Shown in pieces: positions 1-41,732 of a stretch of 41,732 bases of DNA. The position numbers were made by a program, and so were the translations under genes. Below the pieces are notes generated by a model. The model was not told the origin of the DNA, made no database searches, and was given only the letters and a program-made list of their open reading frames with translations. This DNA is from a virus, in the IMG/VR virus record IMGVR_UViG_3300050821_007750, positions 1 through 41,732 of that record; one strand, 5' to 3'. Positions within the stretch are counted from its first letter, which is position 1, and every line of letters begins with the position of its first letter.

Positions 1-98
1 GTCGTATCAGTGCAGACCTGAGCGAGCCCGTTCGTGACAGTTGTTCCAGGAGTGCCGCTAAGAATGGCATCAGTGCCGGAGATGCCTGTTATCGTGAA
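1..98. repeat. Terminal direct repeat, left copy (98 bp)
   Basis: These 98 bases are identical to the last 98 bases of the window (41635-41732). The minus-strand beta-helix gene stays in frame when the copies are merged. This is the signature of a circular or terminally redundant molecule written out with one overlap, giving a unit length of 41,634 bp. It is most simply an assembly overlap rather than a biological long terminal repeat, because it lies inside a coding sequence. Confidence 0.95.
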
Positions 99-344
99 GT
101 GCGCGCCCAGCCCGTTTCCAAAGCTTGAGCCGCCATTGTAGAGCGAGACTATCTTCCCGATATCAGCAGAACCAAATTGATGGGTTGGCGAATGCAGGAT
201 TGTGCCGGTATTCGAAACATCAGTGAGCACAATCGCATCAGCGATCGCCGCATAATCCGTCATGACGTTGATTGACGGCTGTGTTTGCGCTAAAACTGAT
301 GAATGTGAAAGAATTAAAAAAAGTGCTAATCTAACCCGGCTCAT
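1..344 (-). CDS. Beta-helix protein 1, N-terminal part with signal peptide (continues across the circular join)
   Basis: This is the 5' part of a 687-aa protein whose remainder is at 39915-41634. The start ATG at 344 overlaps the stop of the preceding gene as ATGA. Residues 1-20 (MSRVRLALFLILSHSSVLAQ) form a typical Sec signal peptide: two arginines, a hydrophobic core and a VLA-Q cleavage site. The next roughly 95 residues are Ser/Thr/Gly rich with short repeats of the kind found before beta-helix domains in phage spikes. No recognisable virion-attachment head domain is seen in this part. A signal peptide is unusual for a phage spike and suggests export to the periplasm or outside. The alternative is a misjudged hydrophobic N-terminus of an ordinary virion protein. 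Confidence 0.85.
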   Translation of the reverse strand, partial: MSRVRLALFLILSHSSVLAQTQPSINVMTDYAAIADAIVLTDVSNTGTILHSPTHQFGSADIGKIVSLYNGGSSFGNGLGAHFTITGISGTDAILSGTPGTTVTNGLAQVCTDT

Positions 345-2701: not shown

Positions 2702-2708
2702 AACATAA

Positions 2709-4008: not shown

Positions 4009-4010
4009 AT

Positions 4011-4259: not shown

Positions 4260-4474
4260 TTTTGGAGCCATCCCGCTGACGAAGAGCAGCCGGATGAACC
4301 TAACCAGCGTGCTGATATCAGTCTGGGCCTGTCATGCTCACATGGTTTCCCGATGCGCCGTTTGGCCCCGGCTTTTTCGAGCGCAGCCGCAAATTTCTCG
4401 CAAGCCTCTTTTTGTATTTCCCAAAAGTGAATATCCTCATTTCTTCTATCGGTGGATTGAACATTAAAAGCCAT
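4256..4474 (-). CDS. Unknown small protein, 72 aa
   Basis: The start at ATG 4474 follows an AGGAG motif by seven bases and overlaps the end of the nuclease gene. The product has a charged helix (HFWEIQKEACEKFAAALEKA) and a Ser/Cys-rich tail (SSGCSSSAGW). Length and context fit a small accessory gene of the replication operon. Not recognised. Confidence 0.55.
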   Translation of the reverse strand: MAFNVQSTDRRNEDIHFWEIQKEACEKFAAALEKAGAKRRIGKPCEHDRPRLISARWLGSSGCSSSAGWLQK

Positions 4475-7360: not shown

Positions 7361-7512
7361 TTGAGCGTGAAATCGACTTGTCGCACAAACTTCTTGTCTT
7401 AATGCGAGCTATTCGATGCGTACTGAAATCGCTCGAAAAAGAGACCGATACCAAGACTGCTCTTGTTAGATCAGTGCTGATAGAAGCAGTCAAACAAACG
7501 GAACGCAGATGA
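7357..7512 (+). CDS. Small helical protein, 51 aa
   Basis: ATG 7357 follows AGAGGAAA and overlaps the stop of the 12-codon ORF. The product is a charged helical hairpin (REIDLSHKLLVLMRAIRCVL, then KTALVRSVLIEAVKQTERR). Upstream in-frame starts exist (7171) but would run through the repeat unit. Function unknown. Confidence 0.6.
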   Translation: MIEREIDLSHKLLVLMRAIRCVLKSLEKETDTKTALVRSVLIEAVKQTERR

Positions 7513-7739
7513 ACGACATTCGCCCTCCTTGGTATCGGTCGCCGTACAAGTGCATCAGGCGCCGGATAGTCATAGGCATCTGGTACTATAGCGGAGCACC
7601 ATTTAGCTGGCTGTTGGCTATTGCGATGATTGGTGACCCAACACTGCGTAGCCAGTTAATCACTAATATACGCAGATTGCTACACTATCGAGCTCGTGGA
7701 TTCATAGAACCCCTCCTCCCTAGGCGTGGCAACCGGTAG
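7509..7739 (+). CDS. Small basic protein with a hydrophobic segment, 76 aa
   Basis: This is the last member of the ATGA chain. A basic N-terminus (YKCIRRRIVIG) leads to one hydrophobic stretch (IWYYSGAPFSWLLAIAMIGD, about residues 24-43) and a basic C-terminus (ITNIRRLLHYRARG). It is probably membrane-associated. Its 3' end lies inside the first of two adjacent hairpins. Confidence 0.6.
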   Translation: MNDIRPPWYRSPYKCIRRRIVIGIWYYSGAPFSWLLAIAMIGDPTLRSQLITNIRRLLHYRARGFIEPLLPRRGNR

Positions 7740-7797
7740 AGGAGGGCAGGGCGGGCCAGGCTAGAGGGTTATCTCCTTACCTCCGTTCTGGCCCGCC
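7711..7797 (+). other. Pair of adjacent strong hairpins
   Basis: Stem 1 is CCCTCCTC (7711-7718) with GAGGAGGG (7739-7746). Stem 2 is GGCGGGCCAG (7750-7759) with CTGGCCCGCC (7788-7797), a 10-bp perfect repeat. The stop codon of the preceding gene lies at the base of stem 1. No T-run follows, so RNA stabilisation, processing or a regulatory RNA is as likely as termination. Confidence 0.55.
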
Positions 7798-7812
7798 GCA
7801 ATAGGTAACAAA

Positions 7813-7911
7813 ATGGATAACATAATTATTCGCCTTTGTCTGATTTTTGTTCTGGTCCTTATCTTCTTTGAAGGACTAGCTATTTGGGCATTATCAGGAC
7901 CATGCAAATGA
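7813..7911 (+). CDS. Membrane microprotein, 32 aa
   Basis: A single hydrophobic helix fills most of the peptide (RLCLIFVLVLIFFEGLAIWA), with an acidic start (MDN). The stop overlaps the start of the Gp157 gene as ATGA. Not recognised. Confidence 0.55.
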   Translation: MDNIIIRLCLIFVLVLIFFEGLAIWALSGPCK

Positions 7912-8432
7912 ACCCAACATCGCTTTCAACCGAAGTTCAGATCTATGAGCGCCTTAAAAAGGCGTTGCTGGAACAATACAAGCTTGAGACCGATGATCAG
8001 GTCTTACTTGATACTCTAGATGGCGCGACTACTCTAGTTGACCAGCTGGTCTCCCTAGTACGACAAGTGCAAGAGGATGAATGCACTATCGACGGACTAC
8101 AGAAACGCATCAACCAGATGCAGGAGCGCAAAAGCAGACTGATTGCGCGGGCCGAGAAATTTCGAGGCATGGTTTCGAAAACGATGGTCGAAGTAGACAT
8201 TAAAAAACTGGTTCAGCCTGATATGACAATAAGTGTGAAAATGGGGCAGCAGCCTTTGGTTATCCTTAGGCCTCCAGATATTCAAACTCCAGTTTCATTC
8301 ACGAAAAAGTTAGAAACATATTCGTGGGATAGAGCAGCAGTACGAGCCGCTCTAGAGCGAAACGATCCACGAGCGTGTGAAGTTGCCAAATTTGGTGAAG
8401 CTGAACCAATCCTAACTGTCCACACCAAATAG
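7908..8432 (+). CDS. Gp157-family phage protein, 174 aa
   Basis: The pattern is that of the siphovirus Gp157 family (Pfam name Siphovirus Gp157). A long coiled-coil N-terminal half (EVQIYERLKKALLEQ, then DGLQKRINQMQERKSRLIAR, about residues 10-95) is followed by a short beta-rich part (MTISVKMGQQPLVILRPPDI) and a C-terminal segment ending AEPILTVHTK. The family is found beside single-strand DNA-binding or recombination genes and has been linked to phage resistance. Here it precedes a protein with an SSB-type tail, consistent with recombination. ATG 7908 is fixed by ATGA coupling. Confidence 0.75.
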   Translation: MNPTSLSTEVQIYERLKKALLEQYKLETDDQVLLDTLDGATTLVDQLVSLVRQVQEDECTIDGLQKRINQMQERKSRLIARAEKFRGMVSKTMVEVDIKKLVQPDMTISVKMGQQPLVILRPPDIQTPVSFTKKLETYSWDRAAVRAALERNDPRACEVAKFGEAEPILTVHTK

Positions 8433-9743: not shown

Positions 9744-9996
9744 GGGTAAGTTGCCAGCCTTCCGGCTTAGTGGCAGATTGTTTCGAGTGCCGCTTGAAGC
9801 TCTGGAGGCGTTTGAAGCATGCCATCTAATCCATCCTTTCGGGTCGTCCTCTTCCGAGGCTGGTATTACGCAGCTTGGCGAGAACGCGGAAAAACTTGTC
9901 GAACCTCTCTTCGCACCCAAGATCGTGAGACTGCCGAGCAAGGATTACGCGACTTTGCCAAACAATACGAAATTGCCAACCGGCCGCAAACCATAA
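9667..9996 (+). CDS. Excisionase-type helix-turn-helix protein, 109 aa
   Basis: Residues 1-50 (KVLRPEEVAERWDCSPRFVY, then LLHEGKLPAFRLSGRLFRVP) are a winged helix-turn-helix of the excisionase/MerR-like family. ATG 9667 follows AAGGAAG. It lies directly upstream of, and overlaps by 178 bases, the integrase gene, so it is the likely Xis or recombination directionality factor. The C-terminal 55 residues, in the overlap, are of low complexity and may be an incidental extension. Confidence 0.7.
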   Translation: MKVLRPEEVAERWDCSPRFVYRLLHEGKLPAFRLSGRLFRVPLEALEAFEACHLIHPFGSSSSEAGITQLGENAEKLVEPLFAPKIVRLPSKDYATLPNNTKLPTGRKP

Positions 9997-10853
9997 CGGT
10001 GGAGTTTGTCTGGGATGGGTATCGCAAGACGCTTAAAGGAAGACCTACTTTTCAGACTATGGGCTTTGAGAGCCGGGCTATCCTTCCTTTCTTTGGCAAT
10101 CTTCCCGCCGAAAGGATCAGCGAACAAGATTGCAAAAATTATCTCATTCGACGGGAAATGGTCCATCGCAAATCTGGCACGATCGCAACCGAACTCGGAC
10201 GACTCAGGAGCGCGCTAAAATGGGCAGAGAGAAAAAACCTGATAGCCAAGGCACCTTACATATCCCGCCCGGCTATGTCACCACCGAAGGAGGCGCGGTT
10301 AACGCGAGAACAGGCGTCTATCTTTCTGTCCTCATCGCGCACCCCGCACATACGACTGTTCACTTTGCTGGCGATGACGACAGGGGGCCGAGCTGGTGCA
10401 TTACTTGGCCTGACTTGGAACCAAGTGGACCTCGAGCGGCGGATAATCGATCTCAGATTGGCGAATGGTCTTTCAGGAAAGCGCCGGGCTGTAGTTCCGA
10501 TTAACCGCACCCTTATGGCGGCCCTTACGGAGGCCAAAAGAGGCGCGCTGACAGACTTTGTAGTGGAGTGGAATGGAAGACAGGTTAAAAGCGTTAAGAA
10601 GGGCCTGGGGGCTGCCGGAAAGCGCTGCAATCTGCCTTGGGTCACCGCGCACGTGTTCCGCCACAGTGCAGCCAGCTGGATGGCTGAGGCTGGGGTCAGT
10701 ATGGATCGAATTGCCGCCTTCCTCGGTCACTCGGACAGCAGGATCACTTCAAGGGTTTATGCTAAGTTCTCGCCGGATTATCTGAGAGACGCGGCCGAGG
10801 CGCTGGAGATTGATAATTGGAACATGAACTGGAAGAGCGTATCGCAGATCTGA
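9819..10853 (+). CDS. int: Tyrosine integrase
   Basis: This is a 344-aa tyrosine recombinase of normal length. An N-terminal arm-binding part (residues 1-55) and a SAM-like core-binding part (about 60-145, ending LGRLRSALKWAERKNL) precede the catalytic domain. Visible catalytic residues are R191 in TTGGRAGALLGL, H278 and R281 in TAHVFRHSAASW, H304 in FLGHSD and nucleophile Y314 in SRVYAKF. It catalyses attP x attB integration, with attP about 200 bases downstream. A stop codon two codons upstream in the same frame fixes the start at or after 9819, so the overlap with the excisionase gene is real. Confidence 0.95.
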   Translation: MPSNPSFRVVLFRGWYYAAWRERGKTCRTSLRTQDRETAEQGLRDFAKQYEIANRPQTITVEFVWDGYRKTLKGRPTFQTMGFESRAILPFFGNLPAERISEQDCKNYLIRREMVHRKSGTIATELGRLRSALKWAERKNLIAKAPYISRPAMSPPKEARLTREQASIFLSSSRTPHIRLFTLLAMTTGGRAGALLGLTWNQVDLERRIIDLRLANGLSGKRRAVVPINRTLMAALTEAKRGALTDFVVEWNGRQVKSVKKGLGAAGKRCNLPWVTAHVFRHSAASWMAEAGVSMDRIAAFLGHSDSRITSRVYAKFSPDYLRDAAEALEIDNWNMNWKSVSQI

Positions 10854-11332: not shown

Positions 11333-11580
11333 ACACGGATAAGGTGAAAATTACAGAAACATGGGGGCCTGACCCGGCCGAACTGGAGCAGCGCGTTGCC
11401 AGGCTTGAGAAAAACTTAACCGTTCATGACCTTGCCAGAGATTCTATTGATATTTGGCGGTTCATGAGAGAGTTGGAGCAGCGCATCGCCGCACTTGAGA
11501 CCGACACGCCACTCGAAAAGCATTTCAAATATGCTGATTTGGTTAAGCGCATCGCCGCTCTTGAAACTAAAATCAAATGA
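11329..11580 (+). CDS. Coiled-coil protein, RIAALE family copy 2, 83 aa
   Basis: This is a paralogue of the preceding gene with three helical motifs (ELEQRVARLEKNL, ELEQRIAALETDT, LVKRIAALETKIK). ATGA overlaps occur at both ends. It is probably an oligomeric coiled coil. There is no enzymatic motif; a regulatory or scaffolding peptide is possible. Confidence 0.65.
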   Translation: MNTDKVKITETWGPDPAELEQRVARLEKNLTVHDLARDSIDIWRFMRELEQRIAALETDTPLEKHFKYADLVKRIAALETKIK

Positions 11581-11924
11581 CCACAGCGCTAGCTCAGATC
11601 CAAGAGGAAATTGCCAAGCTCGAAGAGCGGCTGAAGTTGCTGCGAACGGCAGAGGCTGCCCTGCAGGCGCTGGAAGCGAAAGTGGAAAAGAGCGTGTACG
11701 AAAATAATCCATATTTATTTAATAATAAGCCCACCAAGGGCCTTGCGGCAGCCATACGGACCCTCCTTACCGATAAAGGATCCATGACCAAGGCTGACAT
11801 CGATAAGGCCCTCAGTGAGGCTGAATGGTTCCTTGGGAAAGGCTCTGTCTCCGGCGCCCTGCAGGCCATGAAAGTCCGGGGAGTGGTTGCGCGCACCAAA
11901 GCAGGGAAGTGGACAGTGAAATGA
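11577..11924 (+). CDS. Coiled coil plus winged-helix-like protein, 115 aa
   Basis: The N-terminal coiled coil (IQEEIAKLEERLKLLRTAEA, residues 7-40) is followed by a linker (YENNPYLFNNKPTKG) and a C-terminal domain with winged-helix character (AAIRTLLTDKGSMTKADIDK, then GSVSGALQAMKVRGVVARTK, ending GKWTV). It may be a DNA-binding regulator expressed near attP. Domain type is inferred from pattern only. Confidence 0.65.
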   Translation: MTTALAQIQEEIAKLEERLKLLRTAEAALQALEAKVEKSVYENNPYLFNNKPTKGLAAAIRTLLTDKGSMTKADIDKALSEAEWFLGKGSVSGALQAMKVRGVVARTKAGKWTVK

Positions 11925-17040: not shown

Positions 17041-17307
17041 ATGATCCTGTGGAAGATATTTCAGATAGGCATTTTCTTTAGCGTGCTCATGCTGTTCAGT
17101 TACAACGGAGCATTCAACGGCAATGGCTATGCGCAAGCCGTAATGGCTTTCCTGGCAGCTGGCTTTGCCACTGCCTTCGTTGTCGAGATAGAATTCAGGG
17201 TGAAGCGGTTAATAAGCCGGTTGGCTCTGCGGAAGTTGTTGCGGGAAACGACTAGAGATACCCGCAAGAGCAGCTCCGAGCTGCCGCGGCTGCGGATTGA
17301 CTTGTAA
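17041..17307 (+). CDS. Plus-strand membrane protein embedded in the late minus-strand operon, 88 aa
   Basis: GAGG lies about six bases before ATG 17041, three bases from the divergent fibre start. Two hydrophobic segments (IFQIGIFFSVLMLFSYNGAF, then AQAVMAFLAAGFATAFVVEI) are followed by a basic C-terminal helix (RVKRLISRLALRKLLR). The last 99 bases overlap the end of the ejection-protein gene in antisense. No clear promoter is seen. The product resembles small phage membrane proteins of unknown role and may be an independently expressed moron. Confidence 0.55.
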   Translation: MILWKIFQIGIFFSVLMLFSYNGAFNGNGYAQAVMAFLAAGFATAFVVEIEFRVKRLISRLALRKLLRETTRDTRKSSSELPRLRIDL

Positions 17308-19095
17308 CGGCGGGGCTCGGCCGCCGGCTAAAATCGTTTGCAAAAGATTTTCGACGTTGCGATTGGTTATGGCCTCAGAAGCTTTCTTGGCCGCATACCC
17401 GCCTGCAGCAAGAGCGGTGGCTCCAACCGGATGATTGCCGAATAAGCCAGCTCCAACCTCCAGTCCGGCCGGAAGAGCACTGGTGGGCGAAAACTTGCTT
17501 GCACCGCGGAGCGCTTGCTGAAGCATGCTGCCCCCCATTGTGTTTTCCAGCTGGCTTGCTTCTTCAGGTGTCCAATTCCCGTTTTTGAGCAATCGATAAA
17601 GGTTTTGTCTTGTTGTAGCGTCGATATTTGGAACCTGATTTCTCTTCTTTTGCCAATCAGCAAGCTGGAGCGCCTCGGCAAGATCCTTGGACTTGGCAAA
17701 CCGCGTATTTAAATCACGCGCATTTTGAATGGCTTCAGCTGCTTCAGGAGCGGCACCAGCCGCCATTGCACTGGGCGCGGTTTGCGGTCTTGGTGCGGGA
17801 GCTTCCGGATTAAGAGCGCTGCCTTGAATATATCCTGAAGGCGGCAAAGGCCTTTCTGGCGGGGACGATATCCCTGTGAACGCAGGATCATTCTTGAACT
17901 TGTCGACTAGATCCGAAATCCCTTTGGCTTGCGTTTGAGTGGGATTAGCGAATTCGTCACGATTCTTTACAATCTCGTGCTCAACAGCAAGGTCATAAAG
18001 GTCTCTTGTCTTGTCCGAATAATCCGCAAGACGCTGCAAATATCTGTTCCATGTTGGGCTACCTGGGCCCGGCTGTGCCGGTGTTGGAACAGCTGGAGAT
18101 TTTACAAACGGCTCGGGATTGGCAATGAACTGATCAATGTTGTTTCTGATCATATTGCCAAAGAAACGCTCGCCATTGTCATTTGATGACGTCACGTCAC
18201 GATTGACGAACTGGCGTTTCTGATCGAGAGCCTTGAGGCTTATCGGCTCGCCTTCTGCGGCATGAGCCTCAAGGTTATTGATTACCGACAGCGCTTTCGG
18301 GTGCAGATCGGGGCTGATACCAGCGGCCTGGGCATCCTGTTTGATCTTGGCGACCAGCCCACCATAGGCCTCTGGCGTATATGCCGCCCCTAGATCCTCA
18401 GCTTTTTTGTAGGCTGCATTCTTCAGCGCCTCAATATTCTCGGCAGTTGGGATTGCCTCGGTCGCTGCCTGTTTGGCGCCGGTCAGAACAGAACCAGCCC
18501 CAACCCCGCCAGCAAGCGCCGCGGCCATCCTAGCCGGTCCCTCCATGGGAGTGCCGGCTGTTACCTGCCCTGCAGCCTCAGAGGCTATCCCGGGCCCCAC
18601 ACCATATCGAAGTGCATTTGCTAGTGGATTGCCGGGCGTTAAAATGGCCCCTGGAACGAATTCTGCGGCTGTGCGGGAATATTGACCAGCCGTGGTTTGA
18701 GGTGGCTCAGCGAGCCCCGGAATGGCCCTGGCGGCCATTTGGTTCAAACCGGCTGAGCCTAGAGTATTTGATAGGTCAGGCTGATTGGGCGGTGCCGGTC
18801 CGAGGAGATAATCAAAGCCCTTGTTGGCAACCGACCGGAGCCCACTTGCCACATCCGGAATGAATCCAGCTGTTCCAAGAGCACCACGAGAGAGGCCAAT
18901 GGTTGCCTGATTGGCAGCGTCAAGAGCCAGACTTGGCGGTGGAGAGGGCTCGCCTGCTGCAGCCTGCGGAGGTCCGGAACCTACTTTGCCCTCTCCGCCA
19001 TAGTGTTTAGCCATAACGCCTTTGATGACATCAGGCGTTGTCGCATCCGGAAATTCATGAACTGCTCCATCCGGACCGGTAACTTCGATTGTCAT
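17209..19095 (-). CDS. DNA ejection / internal virion protein, 628 aa
   Basis: The N-terminal motif VTGPDGAVHEFPDATTPDVI, then KGVMAKHYGG, is the start seen in ejection or internal proteins of podoviruses. A hydrophobic Ala/Gly-rich stretch (AAALAGGVGAGSVLTGAKQA, about residues 188-207) could insert into membranes. Long helical regions with Ala/Gln follow, and the C-terminal region is Gly/Ala-rich. It lies directly after the transglycosylase-bearing protein (ATGA overlap), as in podovirus ejection gene sets. It probably leaves the virion with the DNA to build a channel. Confidence 0.7.
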   Translation of the reverse strand: MTIEVTGPDGAVHEFPDATTPDVIKGVMAKHYGGEGKVGSGPPQAAAGEPSPPPSLALDAANQATIGLSRGALGTAGFIPDVASGLRSVANKGFDYLLGPAPPNQPDLSNTLGSAGLNQMAARAIPGLAEPPQTTAGQYSRTAAEFVPGAILTPGNPLANALRYGVGPGIASEAAGQVTAGTPMEGPARMAAALAGGVGAGSVLTGAKQAATEAIPTAENIEALKNAAYKKAEDLGAAYTPEAYGGLVAKIKQDAQAAGISPDLHPKALSVINNLEAHAAEGEPISLKALDQKRQFVNRDVTSSNDNGERFFGNMIRNNIDQFIANPEPFVKSPAVPTPAQPGPGSPTWNRYLQRLADYSDKTRDLYDLAVEHEIVKNRDEFANPTQTQAKGISDLVDKFKNDPAFTGISSPPERPLPPSGYIQGSALNPEAPAPRPQTAPSAMAAGAAPEAAEAIQNARDLNTRFAKSKDLAEALQLADWQKKRNQVPNIDATTRQNLYRLLKNGNWTPEEASQLENTMGGSMLQQALRGASKFSPTSALPAGLEVGAGLFGNHPVGATALAAGGYAAKKASEAITNRNVENLLQTILAGGRAPPLQVNPQPRQLGAALAGISSRFPQQLPQSQPAY

Positions 19096-21938
19096 TCTGG
19101 TGTCAGATTTCCGTTAGCGTCATATTTGAAACGCTTAGGTTGGGCGGTTGGCGCCGTCTGGGCAGGAACTGCTGGGGCTGCAGGAGCGCCTCCGGGCTGC
19201 CCCAAGCGCCCAAGAACGCCAGCTCTAACAGATTCAACGAACGGCTTGTTTTCAGCATGAATGACATCAAAGTCACCCGAGAGCGGCCCCATCCCGGCAT
19301 GCCATTGCCCCTGCAGGGCTTCAACCTTGGAAGCCAGAGCCAACGCGGCTTGCTGAATTGCCGCGTTCTGCTGAGTAGGTGTCATGTTTGGACTAATATT
19401 TAGCTCGAGCTGTTTTCTTTCACCAGCTGTGCCGCCGCTCGAACCAGCATAAAACTTTTCCATCTCAGCAGAATAAAGCTGGTTCAGCTCATTGAACTTC
19501 GCAAGCGTCTGACCGCTGGCACCGGTTCCCTTGATCGCATTGACAACGGCATTTGCAGGCGTGCCACCAACCGCCCAGTCCACATTACCAAGCTGCGGGA
19601 CCAGTTCGGACAGCTCTGTCAAATGACCCAGGGCGGTATTGCCGGCCGTGATCACCTTGGATGTCGGGCCCGAGGTGAAATCCTTGCGGGTGCCAGCTCT
19701 TGTTTTGCTCTCCGTCTGATCGAGCATTGGATCAGCTTGCTGAGCTGCCAGCCTTGCCTGCACTACCATCGGAGGCGTTCTCGAGGTGATGTTTGGTAGC
19801 ACCTCTCTGCCATCGATGTACCTCTGTGCCATAATCCCAACCGGCTGAGGCACAGCGGCCAAAACATCCTGACCCTTCAAATCTTCGGCCAGCGGCTGCC
19901 CATCTCTGCCCATGACCGGCTGATCGGCGGGTGCCTTTCCTGCATTCTGCTTGGCAATGTTCCATTGCTCAAACGTCATCGGATTTGGCTGATTTTGGGT
20001 AGGTGCAAAATTGTTCTTGTAGAAATTGTAATTCTTGATTTCGGTTGTATCGGTTTCCTTGTTGGGATTCGATGGGAAGGCGGAAAGCTGATTTGTTGCC
20101 GTATTCCTCTGAACCGGCGTCCCATTAACATTCAACTGCTGAAACTGCCCGGCCGCATCTTGTGTCATTTGATGCTGCAGCATTTGCAACACTAATTGCC
20201 TCTGCGCAGCATATTGCTGCCCGGCATAAAGCGGGTTTGAAAGGTAGGCCAAGGCGGCTTGAGTGTTGATCCTGGGCCGCGGTGGAAGTGGGGGAAGCTC
20301 TGCTCCTTGTGTAGCTTCTTCTGCCGTTCCCTTAGGGGCGGGCACTGGCGAGGCTGGCTGCTGCTCTTTACCGGTAAACAGCGGCAAATCCGAGTAGCTC
20401 TGGCCATAGATGTTTTGCGCCAGCTGGTTTAGCGGCGCAAGCCCGCTCCGCGGTCCGGTATCGGGAGGCGGAGGGGGAATAGGCGGCGACGGAGGACGTG
20501 GCTCTAAATTTTGCTGCTGCCCCGCGGGGGGCTGTTGCGGTTGCATGAATGGAGCATTGCTCAGCCCTTGGCGGGCCGGGAGCGGCATGGCTCCAATAGC
20601 AGGATTACCCTGCGTTGCAGTCTGAGGATAAATACCGGGACCGTTAACAGTCTGAGCAATTTGCCGCTGGCCAGGAGTGATCAGGCCGGGAGAGCCGCCA
20701 GCAAGCTGCTCCGTCGGGGCGCCATACCTACTTGCCCATTTGTTTATAAAATCGCTAGCCGGTGCATTTGGATCGCCACCATTGGCAGAAATGTGCCTTG
20801 CGGGCACAAGCTGGCCTGCAGGGGTATCAGGGTTGTTAATTAGGCTGAGAGCACCACCGGCGCCTTGCTGATGCGCAAGATAAAGTTCACCTTGAGTTGG
20901 ATCACGCCCAAGGTTATTCCTAAGCGTGTTGAAATTATCCTGCGTGCCGCGTGCAAAACGCTCTTCTTCTGTTCCGGTTCCTCCCCAACCGGGCCCCAGT
21001 TGATAGGTGCCATGATATTGGCTCCCCGGACGATCGGGAACAGTACCCCCGCCGCTTTCAATTTGAGCAGTAATATTGCGATACTGATCAAACCCGCCTC
21101 CCGGGCCAAAGAATCCGCCGGAACTGGCCGGCTGAGATAGAGGAGTAGCAACCTGAAGCGGCCGCATTGGAGGAACAGGAGCCTCGGTTGGGCCGTTCGT
21201 TGTCAGCAATGGCCGCGAAATCGGCAAAGGAACCTGATTTTCCGGCCTCGGTAAGGGAACAGGAACTTGCCCAGCATCGGCAACCCGAACGGGTGGCAAA
21301 GGCACACTAGCTTGCGGAGCAACCATAGGCGCCGGAGCACGGTTCCCAGCTGCCAGCGCATCTTGCAGAGCTTGGTTGCCTTGGATTTCCTGAGGCGTGA
21401 CCTGACTAACCGGAGCAGGTGCTGGTACCGGGGCAACCGGCAACGCCGGCTGCATTGGAGTCGGCCCTACCGATAAGGCCGGAGGCACTCCCGCGCTTTC
21501 CCGCGGGGATAATGCCTGCAACGGGACACTTGTCGATGGGCCGATAGGAGAAGTGCCACCAAGGGCGCTGATCAGGCCGCCAATGCCGCCTCCCCCGGCT
21601 CCACTCGCGGCTGGAGCCGCTTGTTGCGGCGGAGGAGGCAACGGAGTGATTTGTTGCTGAGCAGGCGGCTGCTGTAATGCCGGCGCCAGAACATTGGCAA
21701 GATCAGTTGCTCCTTGCTTGGCCGCGGCTCCCTGGGCATAATTTGCAAGACCGGTCTTGAGCCCCTCTGCTAGACGGGCCGCACCCTGCCATTTCGATTG
21801 AATCGGTGAATAATCGCCCGCGCCAGTTCCCCCTCCCCTTGCAAGAGCTGCAATCATCGCATCACGCGCATGCTGATCAGCAGTTGGGTTGCCGGGAGCA
21901 TTAAACAGCGTGGGGAGATAATCAGCTATCCCCGCCAT
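19092..21938 (-). CDS. Large internal virion protein with peptidoglycan-hydrolase domain, 948 aa
   Basis: The first 280 residues are disordered and Pro/Ala/Gln-rich. A lysozyme/transglycosylase-like domain lies at about 283-410: catalytic Glu about 294 in ITAQIESGGG, then GSQYHGTYQLGPG, DNFNTLRNNLGRDPTQGELY and LAHQQGAGGALSLINNP, typical of virion-associated muramidases. A further disordered region (about 410-570) and a long helical C-terminal part (about 570-930) follow. It would open the cell wall during DNA entry. The stop overlaps the next start as ATGA. Confidence 0.85.
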   Translation of the reverse strand: MAGIADYLPTLFNAPGNPTADQHARDAMIAALARGGGTGAGDYSPIQSKWQGAARLAEGLKTGLANYAQGAAAKQGATDLANVLAPALQQPPAQQQITPLPPPPQQAAPAASGAGGGGIGGLISALGGTSPIGPSTSVPLQALSPRESAGVPPALSVGPTPMQPALPVAPVPAPAPVSQVTPQEIQGNQALQDALAAGNRAPAPMVAPQASVPLPPVRVADAGQVPVPLPRPENQVPLPISRPLLTTNGPTEAPVPPMRPLQVATPLSQPASSGGFFGPGGGFDQYRNITAQIESGGGTVPDRPGSQYHGTYQLGPGWGGTGTEEERFARGTQDNFNTLRNNLGRDPTQGELYLAHQQGAGGALSLINNPDTPAGQLVPARHISANGGDPNAPASDFINKWASRYGAPTEQLAGGSPGLITPGQRQIAQTVNGPGIYPQTATQGNPAIGAMPLPARQGLSNAPFMQPQQPPAGQQQNLEPRPPSPPIPPPPPDTGPRSGLAPLNQLAQNIYGQSYSDLPLFTGKEQQPASPVPAPKGTAEEATQGAELPPLPPRPRINTQAALAYLSNPLYAGQQYAAQRQLVLQMLQHQMTQDAAGQFQQLNVNGTPVQRNTATNQLSAFPSNPNKETDTTEIKNYNFYKNNFAPTQNQPNPMTFEQWNIAKQNAGKAPADQPVMGRDGQPLAEDLKGQDVLAAVPQPVGIMAQRYIDGREVLPNITSRTPPMVVQARLAAQQADPMLDQTESKTRAGTRKDFTSGPTSKVITAGNTALGHLTELSELVPQLGNVDWAVGGTPANAVVNAIKGTGASGQTLAKFNELNQLYSAEMEKFYAGSSGGTAGERKQLELNISPNMTPTQQNAAIQQAALALASKVEALQGQWHAGMGPLSGDFDVIHAENKPFVESVRAGVLGRLGQPGGAPAAPAVPAQTAPTAQPKRFKYDANGNLTPE

Positions 21939-22951
21939 CAGGCCTGGCCCCTTAGCGTTCTAGCTGTCCTGATAACCTTGTGATCGCCTACTGTTGTAAC
22001 AGCGTCAGGAGCGGCCTTTTCAACATCCTGCGCCATTGGCCCAATCGTCTTTGGATAGCTCTTCGGGTCTCCCTTGTACCGGAAGGCATGAATCGGAATG
22101 CCGGTCTGTGGGTCCTGGCCAAGAGGTTGGATATCAGTCTTGTCAGTTCTGTCTGACAGCAGCGAGCCTCCGAGCCCGAGCAGCTGCCCGCCAAGCCCAA
22201 AGAGGCCTCCCATTTGAGCATTGGAGTTAGCCGACTGCTGCTGATAATTCTGCTCTACAAGGCCAGCATAATTTGGCGCAGCAACCGACGCCTGTGGGGT
22301 CTGTACGAGGCCCAGATTTGGTTGATAAGAAGATATCTGGCCACCTTGACGCCATGCCTGCGCGGCGTTAATCGGGATTTCGTATTGCTGAATAAGATCA
22401 TTAACTGCTTGCGAGTGGCCCTGGAGGAACATCTGATTGTAAGCATCATTCTTTGCCTGATTGAACTGCTGCATCTGCGTCGCATATCCGGGGCTATCGG
22501 GCGACAATCCCTGATTGTACAACGACTGTTTCTCAGCCTCTGTGTTCTGCTGCCACAATGGATCAAGCCGTTGTTTGTTCAACGCGTCAAGGTTTGCTTC
22601 GGTCGCGCTCCATCCAAGATCCAAAGGCTGGCTAGCCGATTGCTGGACATTCTTTTCAAGCTGGCCTCCAATGTCTGCGGACGTTAGAGCATTGCTCTGA
22701 TTTTGATTGAAGAGCGCCTGCATCTCGGGACTGAGAACCGTCGTTGCCGTATAAGCCCCAGGCGCATCCATCTGCCCAAAAAGCCCAAATGCTCCCTGAT
22801 GATTTGGAGTTTTGGTATAAGTCAACGTCCCATAGGGAGTGACTTGGTTCGTCATGTTTAGGGCTTGCTGCTCTTGCGCAGCCTCAATATTCATTGTTCC
22901 CTGCAGAAACGCTGTTTGCATGGGGTCAGGAGGGCTTGGAGAACTACCCAT
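21938..22951 (-). CDS. Virion protein with S74 intramolecular chaperone domain, 337 aa
   Basis: Residues 1-250 are Gln/Asn/Ala-rich and helical (NIEAAQEQQALNMTNQV, then DLIQQYEIPINAAQAWRQGG). The C-terminal 75 residues carry the S74-type motif SDRTDKTDIQPLG with the Ser-Lys pair, then AFRYKGDPKSYPKTIGPMAQ and DVEKAAPDAV. In tail spikes this domain trimerises the protein and then cuts itself off. Here it sits on a Gln-rich protein beside the ejection proteins. Confidence 0.75.
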   Translation of the reverse strand: MGSSPSPPDPMQTAFLQGTMNIEAAQEQQALNMTNQVTPYGTLTYTKTPNHQGAFGLFGQMDAPGAYTATTVLSPEMQALFNQNQSNALTSADIGGQLEKNVQQSASQPLDLGWSATEANLDALNKQRLDPLWQQNTEAEKQSLYNQGLSPDSPGYATQMQQFNQAKNDAYNQMFLQGHSQAVNDLIQQYEIPINAAQAWRQGGQISSYQPNLGLVQTPQASVAAPNYAGLVEQNYQQQSANSNAQMGGLFGLGGQLLGLGGSLLSDRTDKTDIQPLGQDPQTGIPIHAFRYKGDPKSYPKTIGPMAQDVEKAAPDAVTTVGDHKVIRTARTLRGQA

Positions 22952-23375
22952 CTTTCAACCTTATTGCCCTTTGCTCTTCGCGAGTAATTCCGAATAAAAG
23001 CCCATCACAATCTTTGTATCGACGGCGCAAAACACCTTCGCTCTTGAACCCAAGCGAAACAAGCGTGCGAAGCGCTCTATAATTGTCCGGCCGTATGACT
23101 GCCGTAATCCTCTGGACACCAAGTTGCTCAAAAATATAGCGGGCTACCATACGCACTTCTCTGATACCAAAGGCGCCTCGTCCGGCTACCGTGAGATCAA
23201 CTGTTAGTCTTGGCTCAAAATTATTTAATATAACAGCGCCCAGAATTTGACCGTCTTGGTCAGCAACAACAATGCCGGCAAAGGGTGAAGATATATGACA
23301 GCTGAGCGCCTTTTCGATGAAAATCTTGGCTCGCGGACTATCATTAATGATAATCCTAGCCAAGCAAGTTTCCAC
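22944..23375 (-). CDS. GNAT-family acetyltransferase-like protein, 143 aa
   Basis: The GNAT pattern is visible: a beta-strand pair (FAGIVVADQDGQILGAVILN), a central strand (RLTVDLTVAGRGAFGIREVR), a helix (MVARYIFEQLGVQRITAVIR) and the final PDNYRALRTLVSLGFKSEGV with the RYKDCDG end. The acetyl-CoA loop (normally R/Q-x2-G-x-G/A) is degenerate (AGRGAFG). It lies in the structural operon between hub and S74 protein; such genes recur in this position in podoviruses with unknown target. Confidence 0.75.
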   Translation of the reverse strand: METCLARIIINDSPRAKIFIEKALSCHISSPFAGIVVADQDGQILGAVILNNFEPRLTVDLTVAGRGAFGIREVRMVARYIFEQLGVQRITAVIRPDNYRALRTLVSLGFKSEGVLRRRYKDCDGLLFGITREEQRAIRLKDG

Positions 23376-28264: not shown

Positions 28265-29266
28265 TTACTGCCAGAGAACGCCTTGGAGGAAGGAATTGGA
28301 AATCGTCATATTTCCAGCCCATGCCATGATTCTCACAATCGCGTCCTGATTGACATTGGCGCGATCGCCACCGACTACCTTGAAGTTCCGGCGCGCATGC
28401 GGCCGATACATGAAGTACTCGGTGTTGAGGAAATACATGGTGTTGGCACTGATCTGACCGTTCTTTCCACCATCGAGAACGACATCAATTTCCTTGCCGG
28501 CCCCGTAATACTTAAGACCGGTGAAGCCAATGCCGTGTTCGCCCTTCTCAGACGTGATGCGTTGAATGGTCTGCAGCGAAGCGAGATAGGACAGATAGAA
28601 ATTATTGTCTGCGACAATAAGATCTACGCCTTCGGTGTTGCGCTTCAGATTGACCGTTGTGCTGTTCATATAGGACTGCACATTGGAGCTGGTCACAACG
28701 CCACGCGCATCCGTATTGGCATTGACAGCAAAGTTGCGCCACCAGACTTGGCTACCGCGGTCGATGCCACCAACAACGCCTGATGTAGGCACTTTGGCAA
28801 CAAGAAGCGCTAGGCCGTTCATCTGCTTTCCGCCGAAGGCGGTGCCATCTGAATAGACGCCAGCTGAGAGCTGATTCCAGAAGGTCGCTTCAGCGACATT
28901 GATGCGCGCACGGATCAAATCGATCATGCGCTCTTCGCTGTCATTCTGGAGCTCTTCCAGACCGGAAATCGTGATAGAGATAGACGCCTGCTTGATTGGG
29001 AAGCGGGCGGCTGTCATCGTGTCATTCAATGATACGTTCAGGTTCTCATAGCCTGAATACCATTGGAATGTTTGGTTCATCGCGTATTCGAGTTCCTGCA
29101 TGATCTCGCGACCACCATTAAAGGTGTCAGTTTTGCCGCGAGTTTTCAGGTATGTCAGCAACGCGTTGTTGTTGGTTATATTGTCAGCCAGTTTCCTGGA
29201 GCGATTTTCAAGAGTGGTGGTCACCACGTCGCCCCAGTCAATAGTTGTGACAAGGGGGGAAGCCAT
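28265..29266 (-). CDS. Major capsid protein, 333 aa
   Basis: The pattern is that of HK97-fold major capsid proteins of short-tailed phages: N-arm region (TTLENRSRKLADNITNNNAL), E-loop/spine region (FNGGREIMQELEYAMNQTFQ, then ARFPIKQASISITISGLEEL), P-domain (DGTAFGGKQMNGLALLVAKV) and late part (YFLNTEYFMYRPHARRNFKV). It follows the scaffold gene by 12 bases. It assembles around the scaffold and portal. Confidence 0.9.
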   Translation of the reverse strand: MASPLVTTIDWGDVVTTTLENRSRKLADNITNNNALLTYLKTRGKTDTFNGGREIMQELEYAMNQTFQWYSGYENLNVSLNDTMTAARFPIKQASISITISGLEELQNDSEERMIDLIRARINVAEATFWNQLSAGVYSDGTAFGGKQMNGLALLVAKVPTSGVVGGIDRGSQVWWRNFAVNANTDARGVVTSSNVQSYMNSTTVNLKRNTEGVDLIVADNNFYLSYLASLQTIQRITSEKGEHGIGFTGLKYYGAGKEIDVVLDGGKNGQISANTMYFLNTEYFMYRPHARRNFKVVGGDRANVNQDAIVRIMAWAGNMTISNSFLQGVLWQ

Positions 29267-33025: not shown

Positions 33026-33430
33026 TCATACAACAAAGCCCGAGATATTGGCGATTGAGAATGTGTTTCCTGCTCCAAGACTAGGGACTGTCCATGTGAT
33101 TGCCGTGTTTGGAGCACTCGCGGCAATCGGAACAGCAAAATTCAGGAAGATTGTAGGCGGAGTGGTTTGCAGTGTCGCACCGGCTGGGACTGAGATTGAA
33201 TAAGAGCGCGTACCGCCAAGCAGACCGGTAAGCGTCGCTGTCACAACAGAGGCGCCTGTAGCTCCAAGCCCAGAAAATTCGATGTTTGTGACATAGTTGG
33301 TTTTGCCGGCAACGGCCGGCATAGCGGCAACGGCCGATGCAGCGGCTACCACACCAGATGTTGCAGCAGCAGCGGTTGCAAACGCCGGATATATCGGGAG
33401 CACATCAGGGGCACCAGATGGAAGCGACAT
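33026..33430 (-). CDS. Putative decoration/structural protein, 134 aa
   Basis: An Ala-rich N-terminal stretch (FATAAAATSGVVAAASAVAA) precedes a beta-sandwich-like part (TNYVTNIEFSGLGATGASVV, then TAITWTVPSLGAGNTFSIAN). The start shares a base with the portal stop. It is likely to be a small virion protein. Confidence 0.6.
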   Translation of the reverse strand: MSLPSGAPDVLPIYPAFATAAAATSGVVAAASAVAAMPAVAGKTNYVTNIEFSGLGATGASVVTATLTGLLGGTRSYSISVPAGATLQTTPPTIFLNFAVPIAASAPNTAITWTVPSLGAGNTFSIANISGFVV

Positions 33431-35794: not shown

Positions 35795-38407
35795 TTAGGG
35801 CACCGATAAGAATTGAACCGCCATCATCGGCATAAGGGTGCTGGTCTGTTCAGTCCATGTTGAACCGGTAAGAGATGCGGGGAACCCGCTAGCAAAAGTA
35901 CTTGTTCCACCAGTGCAAGCCGTACCGGCGCAGCTGATATGGCTTATCACCGTACCGGTCCCACTGAGCTGAAGAATATTTGCAGGCGTTGATGTTCCGA
36001 TCAAAGTAGGCGGCAATCCACCGGTTGAACTGACCGAGGCGAATGATGCTGTAGCGCTGTCTGTATTTGAGCAGACCCAGAACTTGTCTGTTACGGTACC
36101 CCCGCCGGGACCACCCTGGACATTCGCGTTCAGCGCCGCGGTGGGTTCGGTCCCGGCTGGCGTAGTAGCCATAGAAGCCGAGCTGGCCACAAGATTAGCC
36201 GGACGATTATCCGAGCCATTCCCATAAATTCCAAAGGCCACGTGGCCAGCCACATCTGCGTTGTAAATCCGGACCGCAACCATATTGAAAGTAGCTATGG
36301 CCCTCTGACCAACCGGAGCGCACCGAATGATATTGGCCTGATGGGCAATAGGAGCAACAGATGCGGGGATAGGCAGGTCAAGCACATACCAGCGCCCGGC
36401 CGTGTAACCGAAATTGCCAGGCAGCGGTGGAGGCGGAATAGTGCCCGAATTTAGAAACTCTACACCGTCCACCTTTGCATTCGCATCCGGGCTTCCAGCA
36501 TGTGGAGCAAAGGCAACAGTGATGAGGCCGTTAACATCCGCATTGACATTGAACGCCTTCACGATTGCCTTGTGCTGCGCCCCGGTCGCCGCAAAGATGT
36601 CAAAGGACGAAAGAACTGTTGTTCCATTGATAGTAACATCAAATAAGCGCTGGAGTGCAGCAGTATCGAAATCCTCGGTGAAATGAAGATTTACGACATA
36701 CCCGTGGCCTGCTTGAAGATTGGATACCGCATAGTTGAACGTACCATAGCGCTCCGATCGGTAAACCAATATAGGCGCCGGATTAGCAACTAGGCTTGTA
36801 TCAACCGGCAAAGTCGGATTACTCAAAGACTGAGTACCGCCGGTGGACCCGATATCCGCAACAAAGTTGCCAACCGCGGGACCGCCGGCATTGATGCTTA
36901 TCGGAATGCTTGAAGAAACCGGATTAAAGGCACCGATATTCGGCGTAGCCGGAGGGGCTAACCCATCAGGCGTCATAAAAGTGAAAATGCGGGAGGTAGG
37001 AGTTGCAGCGCCAGTGCCAATAACAGGTGAGCCGGCGAGAGGGTGAAGGTCCGGAATAGCAGCCGTGACGTTGGTAAGTTTCGGATCTACGCCAAGCTTA
37101 TTGGTAGTGGCAGAAATGGTGTTGCCATTGTCGCTTGAAACAGATGCTTGTCCTACGGTGCCGTTGAACGTGAGATTGTTAGCCCAGGTCGAATTCGATA
37201 CACCGGCATTGCAGCCTGAAGAAGGCGCGCTAAACCATCCCGCCGCAATATCACCATTCTTGACATAGCTTATATTATTTTGCCAAGTGTTATGAAATGA
37301 GCAGCCGTCATCTAGACCGGCTCCCCCGGCACCTAGATCCATGTCCGAATTCCAAATCGTGTTGTTGGTGATGGTGGCTGCATAGGTTGACAAATTGCTG
37401 CCGGCAAATACCTCAATCCCGCGACCGCCCACGTTGTAGATTTCATTGTATGCAATGAGCAACCCGTAAGGATATTGGGGGACATGGCCCCAGGTATCTA
37501 TGATGATACCTTCGCCATCTGTGTGGCCAGTGGTGATGGCTACAGTTTCGCCACCGTCATGGATAACGTTGCCAATCGCCTGAATATGGAAAGGATCGTT
37601 GTCCCAGAGGTTCCCGCCAACAGGCGTTAGCCCCACCATCTCGAAATAATTGTAGCCGGAGGTATGAGAGCCATTATTAGCAGAGAAATCATAGAGCTCC
37701 GTGGCGACGGTGTATTCATAATCGCCTGCTGTTCCTCCGCCCGTGATTGATCCTAGAACACCACCTCCAGCACTGTGATAAATGCCATTGAGGTGCATGT
37801 GATGGTGCCCGCCGGCCTGACACCACAGCTGACCGCCTGAATTGTATGTGTGATTGTTTGAAGGAGAGTATCCCGCAAAACCCTGGACGTTAACGCCATC
37901 GATTTCAAATCCATCAAGGGCAATGAAGTTGCCGGCAAGACAGAAACCTGCAAAGCCATTCGGTTGACTGCCAGTCAGCTTGCAGCCATGGTTTACACTG
38001 CAAACGTAGTTTATGTATCCGGTAGCACCATTTGGACCGCTCCCGGAAGTTGACCACGTTACGCCGGCGCCAGCATCATAATTCGTCCAGCCGGATGAAC
38101 CAAATTGGGTTTGAGTAGCGGCAGTACCTTGAACGTTGACGCAATCACCGCCGGTCAAACCAGTAATATTAGTAGAGGCGCCCCACGGAGTTTTACAATT
38201 GGCGGCAGCACCAAGCGGACCTGCTCCGCAGCCGGGTGTATCAGTGCCGGCAGGGGAAACAAAGAAATTGCGCGTGCAGGTAAGCGGAGACGTAACGTGT
38301 GCAGGTGCCGCGGTCGTTGCATGAGCGTGCCCTATTAAAGCAACAGACCCCGCGGTAACGAAAAAGTTCAGGAAATAGATCACCAAAAAACGTTTCAGGT
38401 TCATCAT
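35795..38407 (-). CDS. Exported beta-helix / malectin protein 2 (putative polysaccharide depolymerase), 870 aa
   Basis: Residues 1-30 are a Sec signal peptide (MMNLKRFLVIYFLNFFVTAG, then SVALIGHAHA, cut before TT). A pectate-lyase-like right-handed beta-helix follows (about 45-490: CTRNFFVSPAGTDTPGCG start, HTDGEGIIIDTWG, DLHPLAGSPVIGTG end). Then a malectin-like carbohydrate-binding domain (about 502-655: PILVYRSERYGTFNYAVSNL, YVVNLHFTED, DANAKVDGVEF) and a C-terminal domain (about 665-870). Many paired cysteines fit an oxidising compartment. It shares ATGA with terL. A virion spike is the alternative. Confidence 0.8.
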   Translation of the reverse strand: MMNLKRFLVIYFLNFFVTAGSVALIGHAHATTAAPAHVTSPLTCTRNFFVSPAGTDTPGCGAGPLGAAANCKTPWGASTNITGLTGGDCVNVQGTAATQTQFGSSGWTNYDAGAGVTWSTSGSGPNGATGYINYVCSVNHGCKLTGSQPNGFAGFCLAGNFIALDGFEIDGVNVQGFAGYSPSNNHTYNSGGQLWCQAGGHHHMHLNGIYHSAGGGVLGSITGGGTAGDYEYTVATELYDFSANNGSHTSGYNYFEMVGLTPVGGNLWDNDPFHIQAIGNVIHDGGETVAITTGHTDGEGIIIDTWGHVPQYPYGLLIAYNEIYNVGGRGIEVFAGSNLSTYAATITNNTIWNSDMDLGAGGAGLDDGCSFHNTWQNNISYVKNGDIAAGWFSAPSSGCNAGVSNSTWANNLTFNGTVGQASVSSDNGNTISATTNKLGVDPKLTNVTAAIPDLHPLAGSPVIGTGAATPTSRIFTFMTPDGLAPPATPNIGAFNPVSSSIPISINAGGPAVGNFVADIGSTGGTQSLSNPTLPVDTSLVANPAPILVYRSERYGTFNYAVSNLQAGHGYVVNLHFTEDFDTAALQRLFDVTINGTTVLSSFDIFAATGAQHKAIVKAFNVNADVNGLITVAFAPHAGSPDANAKVDGVEFLNSGTIPPPPLPGNFGYTAGRWYVLDLPIPASVAPIAHQANIIRCAPVGQRAIATFNMVAVRIYNADVAGHVAFGIYGNGSDNRPANLVASSASMATTPAGTEPTAALNANVQGGPGGGTVTDKFWVCSNTDSATASFASVSSTGGLPPTLIGTSTPANILQLSGTGTVISHISCAGTACTGGTSTFASGFPASLTGSTWTEQTSTLMPMMAVQFLSVP

Positions 38408-39850: not shown

Positions 39851-39924
39851 AGGCGTCGCGATGTTGCGGACAGAATGGCATAGATCAGTAAAAATACCGG
39901 AACGAGAAGCCAATTCAATGACAT
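39847..39924 (-). CDS. Membrane microprotein, 25 aa
   Basis: ATG 39924 lies within the last codons of beta-helix protein 1. The peptide is one hydrophobic helix with a basic end (NWLLVPVFLLIYAILSATSR). It is coupled by ATGA to the 43-aa membrane gene. Support is moderate. Confidence 0.5.
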   Translation of the reverse strand: MSLNWLLVPVFLLIYAILSATSRRL

Positions 39925-41732
39925 GCCACGACCCCTTCAGGCTGATCGACGCTGCCACCATTCGGCAAGACTGCCTGCCAGCGGTTGTTGGCCAAATCCC
40001 AAGTGAACGGCATGAAAGAGCATAGGTTCGGGAGCAATCCCGGCGCGACCGCCTGATTGGTATTCGAGGGCCAGCCGAAAATATTCGAACTCGTTGGCGT
40101 CTGACAAATGATGAAGCCAAGATGCTGACCGTTGACTGTTCCGGGCGCAATAGTCGGAGCCGTCGCATTCCCGGCGCTCAGGCTGAAATATTGGACGTTA
40201 CCATTGCGCACATCAAAAGCCGGGGTCGTAGAAGGCGCAACAACATTGATTATCTCTGTCGCGTCAACGAACTTGTTGCCCGAGCTCACAATGGGATTTG
40301 GCGGGAGATTGTTATAATAGACTTCACCAGCCAATGGCGCCGCTGCGCTGGGCGTTCCTGTGATCACGCATGCCGCAGCCGGGTCACAGAAGAATTTCGT
40401 GATCGTGAACTTCTTGCCCGCGGCGGCACCGGTCCCCGTGAGAACTTCACCTATCTCCAGCGCCTGCGTAATGCCAGACGAATAGGCCACAGCCAAACTT
40501 GTGGCGGTTGGTGCCGGAGTGGAGAGAACGCTGAATGTGATTTGATTGTAGTGATTTGTTATCCCGCCAATTCCCGAAGTCACCTTGAATGTGTTGCCTG
40601 TGAAAGTCTGATTTGGCGTATACCAGCTTCCCCCGGTGATCATGAGATAGTTGGCGCTCAAGGAAGGATCGGTCGCAAAGGTATCGTTGCCATAGATTTG
40701 CGTCTCAGCGAAGTTCTGAAACTGCCCCGTGAATGTTGCGCCTGTGAAATTGGCGGTTTTGATACCTGTGCCTTGGATCAGGTTCTGGAATGTTCCGCCG
40801 TTCACATTGAGCGTGGTGATGATCTTGTCCAGCTCCGAATAGCCATCACCGCGGGCGTCAAGCTGATAGGTCCCGCCCGCCACATTGGCGGTATCGGTCT
40901 GACCGACAAAAATCCCCGTCGCATTGACATTGGTCACCGTTATGTTGCGGCCGCCAGAAATCGAGATCGTGCCACTCACTTGGCGAGCAGATGCGTTCTG
41001 GCTTCCCATCCATGTGAGGAACGTCCCACCTGTAAAGGTGATGTTCTGGGCAATGTGCATATTGGGCCGGTTGAGATCCAATATGCGGGGCTTGCCAGTC
41101 GTCACCCCATAGACCGGCGCGGCATCAACCCACTGAGGGTTATAGGCGTATTTCAATGGATTTTTGAGCGTTACCGTGCCGGCACAGGTGTCTATTGCCG
41201 TGATGGTGTTGTATTCGAAATAGCGCGGCGCCGGCGGATAGCTCGGCAGGCCCATCGAATCAAAGCCGAAGATCAGAACATCATCGCCAACATGGAAGTT
41301 GCTTGAATCAGCGGGAGTTGTGAGCGTGACAGATGGATCATTTATGTTCGCGCCGTTGATGAAGTTCCCGCTTGTGTTCGTGGAAGGATCAAACGGGCCA
41401 TCCCCAGCATTTGAAAACAGATCACCACCAAAGGACATGGCAGTGCCGTCGATCTGGTAGCCGGCATTGCTGGTCATGTTGATGAAGCTGGCGCCGGTCG
41501 CGACAACATCAACGTTCGTGATGCCTTTGAGCCAATGAGTTGAATTGAGGCAGTAAACCCCGGCGGGAATGTTGAACGTGTACCGCGTCGGGTTCTTGCT
41601 GATCAAGAAATTGCGGGCGTTGATGAAAGGGGTAGTCGTATCAGTGCAGACCTGAGCGAGCCCGTTCGTGACAGTTGTTCCAGGAGTGCCGCTAAGAATG
41701 GCATCAGTGCCGGAGATGCCTGTTATCGTGAA
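39915..41732 (-). CDS. Beta-helix protein 1, main part (putative depolymerase/tail spike)
   Basis: This is the 3' part of the 687-aa gene; the 5' part with signal peptide is at 1-344. It has repeated short beta-strands of a right-handed beta-helix (IAQNITFTGGTFLTWMGSQN, GRNITVTNVNATGIFVGQTD, TLNVNGGTFQNLIQGTGIKT, NANFTGATFTGQF-type turns), then a C-terminal receptor- or sugar-binding-like region (APTATSLAVAYSSGITQALE, ending DLANNRWQAVLPNGG). Several cysteines (DTCAG, FFCDPAAAC, IICQ, LCSF) fit an exported protein. It is followed by small membrane genes and terL. Confidence 0.85.
   Translation of the reverse strand, partial: FTITGISGTDAILSGTPGTTVTNGLAQVCTDTTTPFINARNFLISKNPTRYTFNIPAGVYCLNSTHWLKGITNVDVVATGASFINMTSNAGYQIDGTAMSFGGDLFSNAGDGPFDPSTNTSGNFINGANINDPSVTLTTPADSSNFHVGDDVLIFGFDSMGLPSYPPAPRYFEYNTITAIDTCAGTVTLKNPLKYAYNPQWVDAAPVYGVTTGKPRILDLNRPNMHIAQNITFTGGTFLTWMGSQNASARQVSGTISISGGRNITVTNVNATGIFVGQTDTANVAGGTYQLDARGDGYSELDKIITTLNVNGGTFQNLIQGTGIKTANFTGATFTGQFQNFAETQIYGNDTFATDPSLSANYLMITGGSWYTPNQTFTGNTFKVTSGIGGITNHYNQITFSVLSTPAPTATSLAVAYSSGITQALEIGEVLTGTGAAAGKKFTITKFFCDPAAACVITGTPSAAAPLAGEVYYNNLPPNPIVSSGNKFVDATEIINVVAPSTTPAFDVRNGNVQYFSLSAGNATAPTIAPGTVNGQHLGFIICQTPTSSNIFGWPSNTNQAVAPGLLPNLCSFMPFTWDLANNRWQAVLPNGGSVDQPEGVVACH
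41635..41732. repeat. Terminal direct repeat, right copy (98 bp)
   Basis: This is identical to positions 1-98 and lies in the same reading frame of the beta-helix gene. Merging the two copies closes the circle. Confidence 0.95.

Follow-up and report, generated by a model that had tools for sequence, protein, structure and literature searches.

Putatively Sec-exported beta-helix proteins encoded around the terminase large subunit gene of a probably temperate phage

The locus and its genes

The stretch of DNA considered here (the window, 41,732 nucleotides in all) has an exact terminal direct repeat of 98 bp, at positions 1-98 and 41635-41732; closing the contig through this overlap leaves 41,634 bp. 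The gene of main concern, bh1, has the coordinates and the 870-aa length given in the original prediction, the strand being minus (Table 1). Its ATG overlaps the stop codon of terL as ATGA, while its own stop is followed after only 4 nt by the opening of the portal frame, and given this overlap and the position ahead of portal it is probably co-expressed late. The slot between terL and portal houses bh1 both in the window and in the related contig L002, and in both lies outside the tail genes. Searches of 50,697 phage records by tblastn returned zero matches for bh1, and likewise zero for the protein P0003.

A second gene, bh2, which the original prediction did not include, is cut by the ends of the contig and becomes complete (687 aa) only after closure. 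It lies upstream of terL, and its ATG overlaps the preceding gene, again by ATGA. No match to bh2 was obtained in a Pfam search or against plasmids, and phage records gave a weak Vibrio phage match only.

Table 1 Features of the window that are referred to in the text
Feature	Position	Strand	Basis or remarks
bh1, candidate exported beta-helix/malectin protein, 870 aa	35795..38407	minus (38407 to 35795)	homologues in L002, L037, L038
bh1 predicted signal peptide, residues 1-30, MMNLKRFLVIYFLNFFVTAGSVALIGHAHA, predicted cut before TTAAP	38318..38407	minus	n/h/c-region score
bh1 right-handed parallel beta-helix, residues 45-500	36908..38275	minus	homology and predicted model
bh1 malectin domain PF11721, residues 503-624	36536..36901	minus	E 1.6e-15; PDB malectins 9ikp, 2jwp
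bh1 C-terminal domain, residues 656-870	35795..36442	minus	weak match to phrog_25864 (unknown function)
terL, terminase large subunit, 446 aa	38404..39744	minus	phrog_2, E 2.3e-36; directly upstream of bh1
portal protein, 786 aa	33430..35790	minus	phrog_12082, E 2.6e-201; directly downstream of bh1
tyrosine integrase	9819..10853	plus	PF00589, E 1.7e-19; phrog_1, E 1.9e-50
bh2, main part, continuing over the contig junction	39915..41732	minus	beta-helix-like by repeats only
bh2, start, MSRVRLALFLILSHSSVLA followed by QTQPS	1..344	minus	frame 39915-41732 running into 344-3

This soil phage encodes an integrase and is hence likely to be temperate. Among cultured phages, those whose portals are closest have Bradyrhizobium and Rhizobium as hosts. 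Separate tail-fibre candidates are encoded in the window, all of them without signals; the product of 21938-22951, which ends in a Peptidase_S74 (intramolecular chaperone) domain and also lacks a signal, is a likely tail fibre or spike. Elsewhere, a GNAT acetyltransferase gene (22944-23375) lies within the late structural region, and the C-terminal part of the 17209-19095 product matches a PHROG annotated as “major head protein”, for which 28265-29266 gives the better match.

Signal peptides

The N-terminus of bh1 has the anatomy of a signal peptide, i.e. a basic n-region, a hydrophobic core and an AxA-type site near residue 20-35, with the cut predicted between AHA and TT. Under a simple rule set of our own for the n-, h- and c-regions (a heuristic with a cut-off of 12) it scores 14.3, as against 13.8-17.6 for the 14 known enterobacterial signals on which the rules were checked. 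The N-terminus of bh2 also scores above the cut-off. This value is reached by 2.4% of random open frames and by 3 of 70 non-gene ORFs taken from the window, while among the 20 window genes of at least 200 aa (as defined by greedy ORF calls) just two pass, namely bh1 and bh2; the chance of picking exactly both beta-helix-like genes is 1 in 190. A chance hydrophobic start for bh1 can be rejected on this ground, as can Tat export, since the homologues are without a twin arginine, and a lipoprotein, since there is no cysteine at +1.

Every phage homologue found has a signal, whether of bh1 (4/4: window, L002, L037 and L038) or of bh2 (2/2: window and L039), and if the L003 protein described below is included the cut sites are of AxA type in all seven proteins (six AxA, one VxA). 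Comparing the window with L002, the bh1 signals are 30% identical, the whole proteins 60%. In a crude neutral simulation with the frame held open, the signal survived in 5-32% of runs at comparable divergence, a result taken as support only, since it comes from a small number of branches that partly depend on each other. The Sec signal originally proposed for bh1 is borne out, as a predicted cleavable one, by its anatomy and score, as well as by its retention in all four phages.

Cysteine residues

Mature bh1 contains 14 cysteines (1.67%), compared with an average of 0.46% for the 20 other same-strand genes. The content for bh2 and bh1 lies at 1.2-1.7%, and the two taken jointly differ from those 20 genes with an odds ratio of 3.2 (p 9e-5). 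Counts for the other proteins are 16 in L002, 8 in bh2, 10 in the L039 homologue, 8 in L003, and 29 in each of L037 and L038. As regards their arrangement, C60/C71 and C136/C142 are common to bh1 of all four phages, whereas C44 and C89 occur together in three of the homologues and are both gone in L002. Among RTX-type bacterial homologues, 37 of 37 are without cysteine past residue 60, and the overall pattern is consistent with phage proteins that fold oxidatively in the periplasm and RTX homologues that leave the cell directly by type I secretion. The earlier suggestion that the many cysteines point to export holds up in part: the 14 residues of the mature protein and the gain or loss of pairs together speak for it, but content alone is no proof of export, because signal-less control spikes in L037 and L039 reach 1.1-1.9%.

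Domain organisation and predicted fold of bh1

Although the beta-helix of bh1 is not detected by Pfam, homology and a predicted model reveal it. A full-length model built from four sequences reached a pLDDT of 29.7; the usable model is that of residues 45-500, for which the alignment of bh1 was extended by 63 rows from bacteria and 3 from other phages (pLDDT 76.4, pTM 0.85). Its best PDB neighbour is Pel9A (1ru4; Z 28.1, rmsd 3.1 over 335 residues, 18% identity), and 5olr gives Z 25.6; the best neighbours include BT_1002, PL6 lyases, a rhamnogalacturonan lyase and C5-epimerases, with phage tail spikes lower (rows less than 1 apart in Z are ties). The predicted fold agrees with the pectate-lyase-like beta-helix of the original prediction, and the malectin domain proposed to follow it is likewise present, scoring 57.9 bits against a gathering score of 23. 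The bh1-family profile also matches GH120, PL9, GH136 and PL6 proteins, in each case through their N-terminal part. The C-terminal domain gave zero matches in a search of 50,697 phage records, and it is the most conserved part of bh1 (76% identical to L002, as against 68% for malectin and 52% for the helix). As to the head-binding domain that bh1 was said to lack, no head- or tail-binding domain appears among the Pfam and PHROGs matches, residues 1-45 being signal and linker.

No variation is seen across phages and bacteria at the residues H202, S250, N280, T296, D297, G298, I301, D304, L317, N321, G327, N349 and D357, and hardly any at H295 (these numbers being alignment numbers plus 44). They include a conserved polar motif of the bh1 family, HTDGxxIxxD, which corresponds to H295-T-D297-G and D304.

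Given the PL9/PL6/GH120/GH136-type fold, the malectin domain and the occurrence of homologues beside exopolysaccharide genes (see below), it is plausible that bh1 is a depolymerase, though beta-helix proteins can be binders or adhesins, and this must be counted against an enzymatic role. It could indeed be that bh1 and bh2 are exported but non-enzymatic, binding glycans or receptors of the host surface so as to mask receptors, exclude superinfection or prevent readsorption. Malectin is a glycan-binding fold, the part of bh1 under strongest conservation is the C-terminal domain rather than the helix, the L037 and L038 homologues contain long Ig-like and Gly-rich regions, and the phage encodes an integrase, all of which would suit such a role; set against this, the closest folds are catalytic, the polar HTDG...D motif has been kept in phages and bacteria alike, and bh1 is coupled to late genes and not to lysogeny functions, so that we regard simple binding as unlikely.

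Phage relatives and the terL–portal slot

The terL and portal proteins of L002 are 91% and 84% identical to those of the window, and its bh1 homologue (60% overall) occupies the matching slot. The structural genes (baseplate, tail) are of another kind in the phage contigs L037 and L038, whose bh1 homologues are much longer, at about 1,550 aa (the start was taken as the inner ATG, which in L037 is preceded by an AAGGAA site), and comprise signal, helix, malectin and further repeats. They are flanked by a fibre gene and a lysozyme gene, and this place next to tail-fibre genes, together with their Gly-rich end, counts against a non-virion reading. The idea that the L037 protein and the fibre of the window have homologous Gly-rich tail tips was considered and is not supported. 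The bh2 homologue of L039 is 77% identical, has a different signal sequence and is flanked by a terL and a portal that are not those of the window; it shares with the bh1 homologue of L038 a phage contig of 71 kb that is unrelated to the window phage. In L003, the terL–portal slot holds a 320-aa beta-helix protein (PF13229) with the signal MKVSVGICFAALSGAFIFASPAHA followed by VD, which has no detectable homology to bh1. The other relatives that have both genes, as well as two cultured phages (one of Bradyrhizobium, one of Rhizobium), for the most part show terL next to portal or small frames in between, and the gap can for this reason be seen as a variable cargo slot. No further relatives were gained with terL as query, and a first genome scan with a phage-only alignment gave no matches.

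Some further observations concern the same contigs. Upstream of terL, L002 has a second exported-cargo site of four consecutive signal-like frames (1835-3127, 3060-3350, 3459-4271 and 4278-4583), of which three share an AQSPTISNPT-like stretch; three were scanned, and are without a Pfam family. Downstream of portal the window encodes a 134-aa protein without signal (33026-33430), the L003 homologue of which (7493-8077, 194 aa, 51% identity over 92 aa) is extended at its N-terminus by a signal-like stretch. The 71-kb contig with both bh1 and bh2 homologues also encodes a 511-aa exported-looking protein (G003 19380-20915, minus strand; L135/L136) with a weak PQQ-repeat match and a possible lipobox. 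The window (11577-11924) and L039 (8340-8675) have in common a small gene whose product has an AlkZ-like/winged-helix C-terminus; in L039, part of the unrelated 71-kb contig, it adjoins the bh2 homologue.

It might be argued from these comparisons that bh1 and bh2 are ordinary virion spikes or decoration proteins, the hydrophobic N-terminus being then either a membrane anchor or a roleless remnant of a captured bacterial gene. Both genes do lie in the structural region, the L037 and L038 homologues stand beside tail genes, and the L003 194-aa protein illustrates how a signal-like N-terminus can occur in a homologue of a signal-less protein. We nevertheless consider this quite improbable: the signal character has been kept despite divergence of the sequence, AxA sites and cysteine pairs accompany it, a head-binding domain was not found by Pfam or PHROGs, and two different beta-helix families of the window phage both have a signal.

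Bacterial homologues

The bacterial homologues of bh1 (pRL90140-type, choice-of-anchor Q, NF041518) share its beta-helix at 30-37% identity; 51 of the 67 alignment members match the NF041518 profile, the window bh1 row not being one of them. One such protein, P0006 from plasmid pRL9, contains six TPT repeats followed by RTX motifs, and from its plasmid, architecture and size we infer that it is pRL90140. In R. leguminosarum 3841 this protein is found in the culture supernatant, where its presence is PrsDE-dependent and it has no signal peptide (Krehenbrink and Downie, PMC2275737). The neighbours of P0006 and of several other bacterial homologues are sugar transferases or glycosyltransferases and exopolysaccharide genes. 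In a tree (moderate support, with a long-branch warning) the phage rows group with L056 and L050, each of which has a Sec-type signal, and the phage signal may therefore have come with a captured bacterial gene whose product was Sec-exported. The cysteines within CLRNWYV and GDCVNV of L056 are shared as well, and correspond to C44 and C89 of bh1.

The exopolysaccharide loci raise the question of whether bh1 and bh2 are lysogenic-conversion cargo, expressed from the prophage and serving, for example, to remodel exopolysaccharide for the lysogen. An integrase and a variable presence at the terL–portal junction would be in keeping with this, as would the homologues in those loci; however, bh1 has the ATGA overlap with terL and only 4 nt to portal, and the counts of promoter-like and terminator-like sites around it are not clearly above shuffled expectation, which together make such a role distinctly improbable.

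Interpretation

Export of bh1 is well supported by the signal kept at 30% identity, the AxA-type sites, the cysteine pairs and the extracellular nature of bacterial homologues. Of the secreted depolymerase envisaged in the original prediction it is the export that gains good support, whereas depolymerase activity is plausible only. Signal anatomy, AxA sites, cysteine pattern, the fold of bh1, malectin, operon position and homology to a family of exopolysaccharide loci are the observations from which the interpretation starts, and the reading that we favour, with a probability of roughly 0.6, is that bh1 and bh2 are late, Sec-exported, glycan-directed proteins that work outside the virion, most likely on host exopolysaccharide or capsule.

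Under this reading, both proteins would be made late in infection, with the packaging genes, and would be exported by the host Sec pathway, signal peptidase I presumably removing the N-terminus. The mature proteins would acquire disulfide bonds as they fold in the periplasm, and would act in the envelope, or else outside it following lysis or further secretion; they would not be parts of the virion. Their target would most likely be the host's own exopolysaccharide or capsule, with the malectin domain of bh1 binding glycan and the beta-helix probably cutting or loosening it. Progeny might in this way be freed from matrix and debris, or neighbouring cells might be opened as a shared good. It must be remembered that Sec alone reaches only the periplasm in a Gram-negative host, which counts against this explanation; in plant-associated bacteria, pectinases often go on to type II secretion, a route that would permit release before lysis.

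More broadly, and with a little less than even confidence, one may suggest that a set of soil phages carries a Sec-exported, glycan-active beta-helix module around terL, exchanged between unrelated phages, that depolymerises instead of or beside a tail spike and acts as a public good. Were this true, a phage gene built for export would represent a public good whose secretion is designed in, not every beta-helix gene of a phage contig could be called a tail spike, and carbohydrate genes of soil viruses may act outside the cell.

Comparison with known systems

Phage tail spikes and depolymerases such as CBA120 TSP2, Sf6 and Kp32gp38 resemble bh1 in having a right-handed beta-helix of similar fold. 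Tail spikes belong to the virion, are put together in the cytoplasm and bear a virion-binding N-terminus. In bh1, by contrast, the N-terminus is a predicted signal peptide, and the window gene is not among the tail genes. Where phage depolymerases are diffusible, this has usually been explained by spikes off virions or on broken tails (PMC10521650). In a literature search, Sec-exported beta-helix proteins of tailed phages did not come up, a weak negative as few subscription papers were covered; what is already known comprises Sec-exported lysis proteins, detached-spike depolymerases and the bacterial WceF. Use of the host Sec system by phage proteins is exemplified by the fOg44 endolysin Lys44 and the T4 antiholin RI (PMC6116005, PMC8385771), but these act in lysis, whereas bh1 and bh2 would be glycan-directed beta-helix proteins.

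Among bacterial proteins, Pel9A (PL9) offers the closest solved fold, at 18% identity. The pRL90140-type proteins of Rhizobium have a homologous beta-helix, are extracellular and are encoded beside polysaccharide genes; unlike bh1 they are without signal peptide or cysteines and rely on RTX repeats for type I secretion, while bh1 combines a Sec signal and cysteines with malectin and its own type of C-terminal domain. WceF of Pantoea stewartii is, like the protein proposed here, an exported beta-helix glycanase with a tailspike-like fold and a tie to exopolysaccharide (PMC7949094), but it is the trimeric product of a bacterial gene, has a Tat signal and has no phage context.
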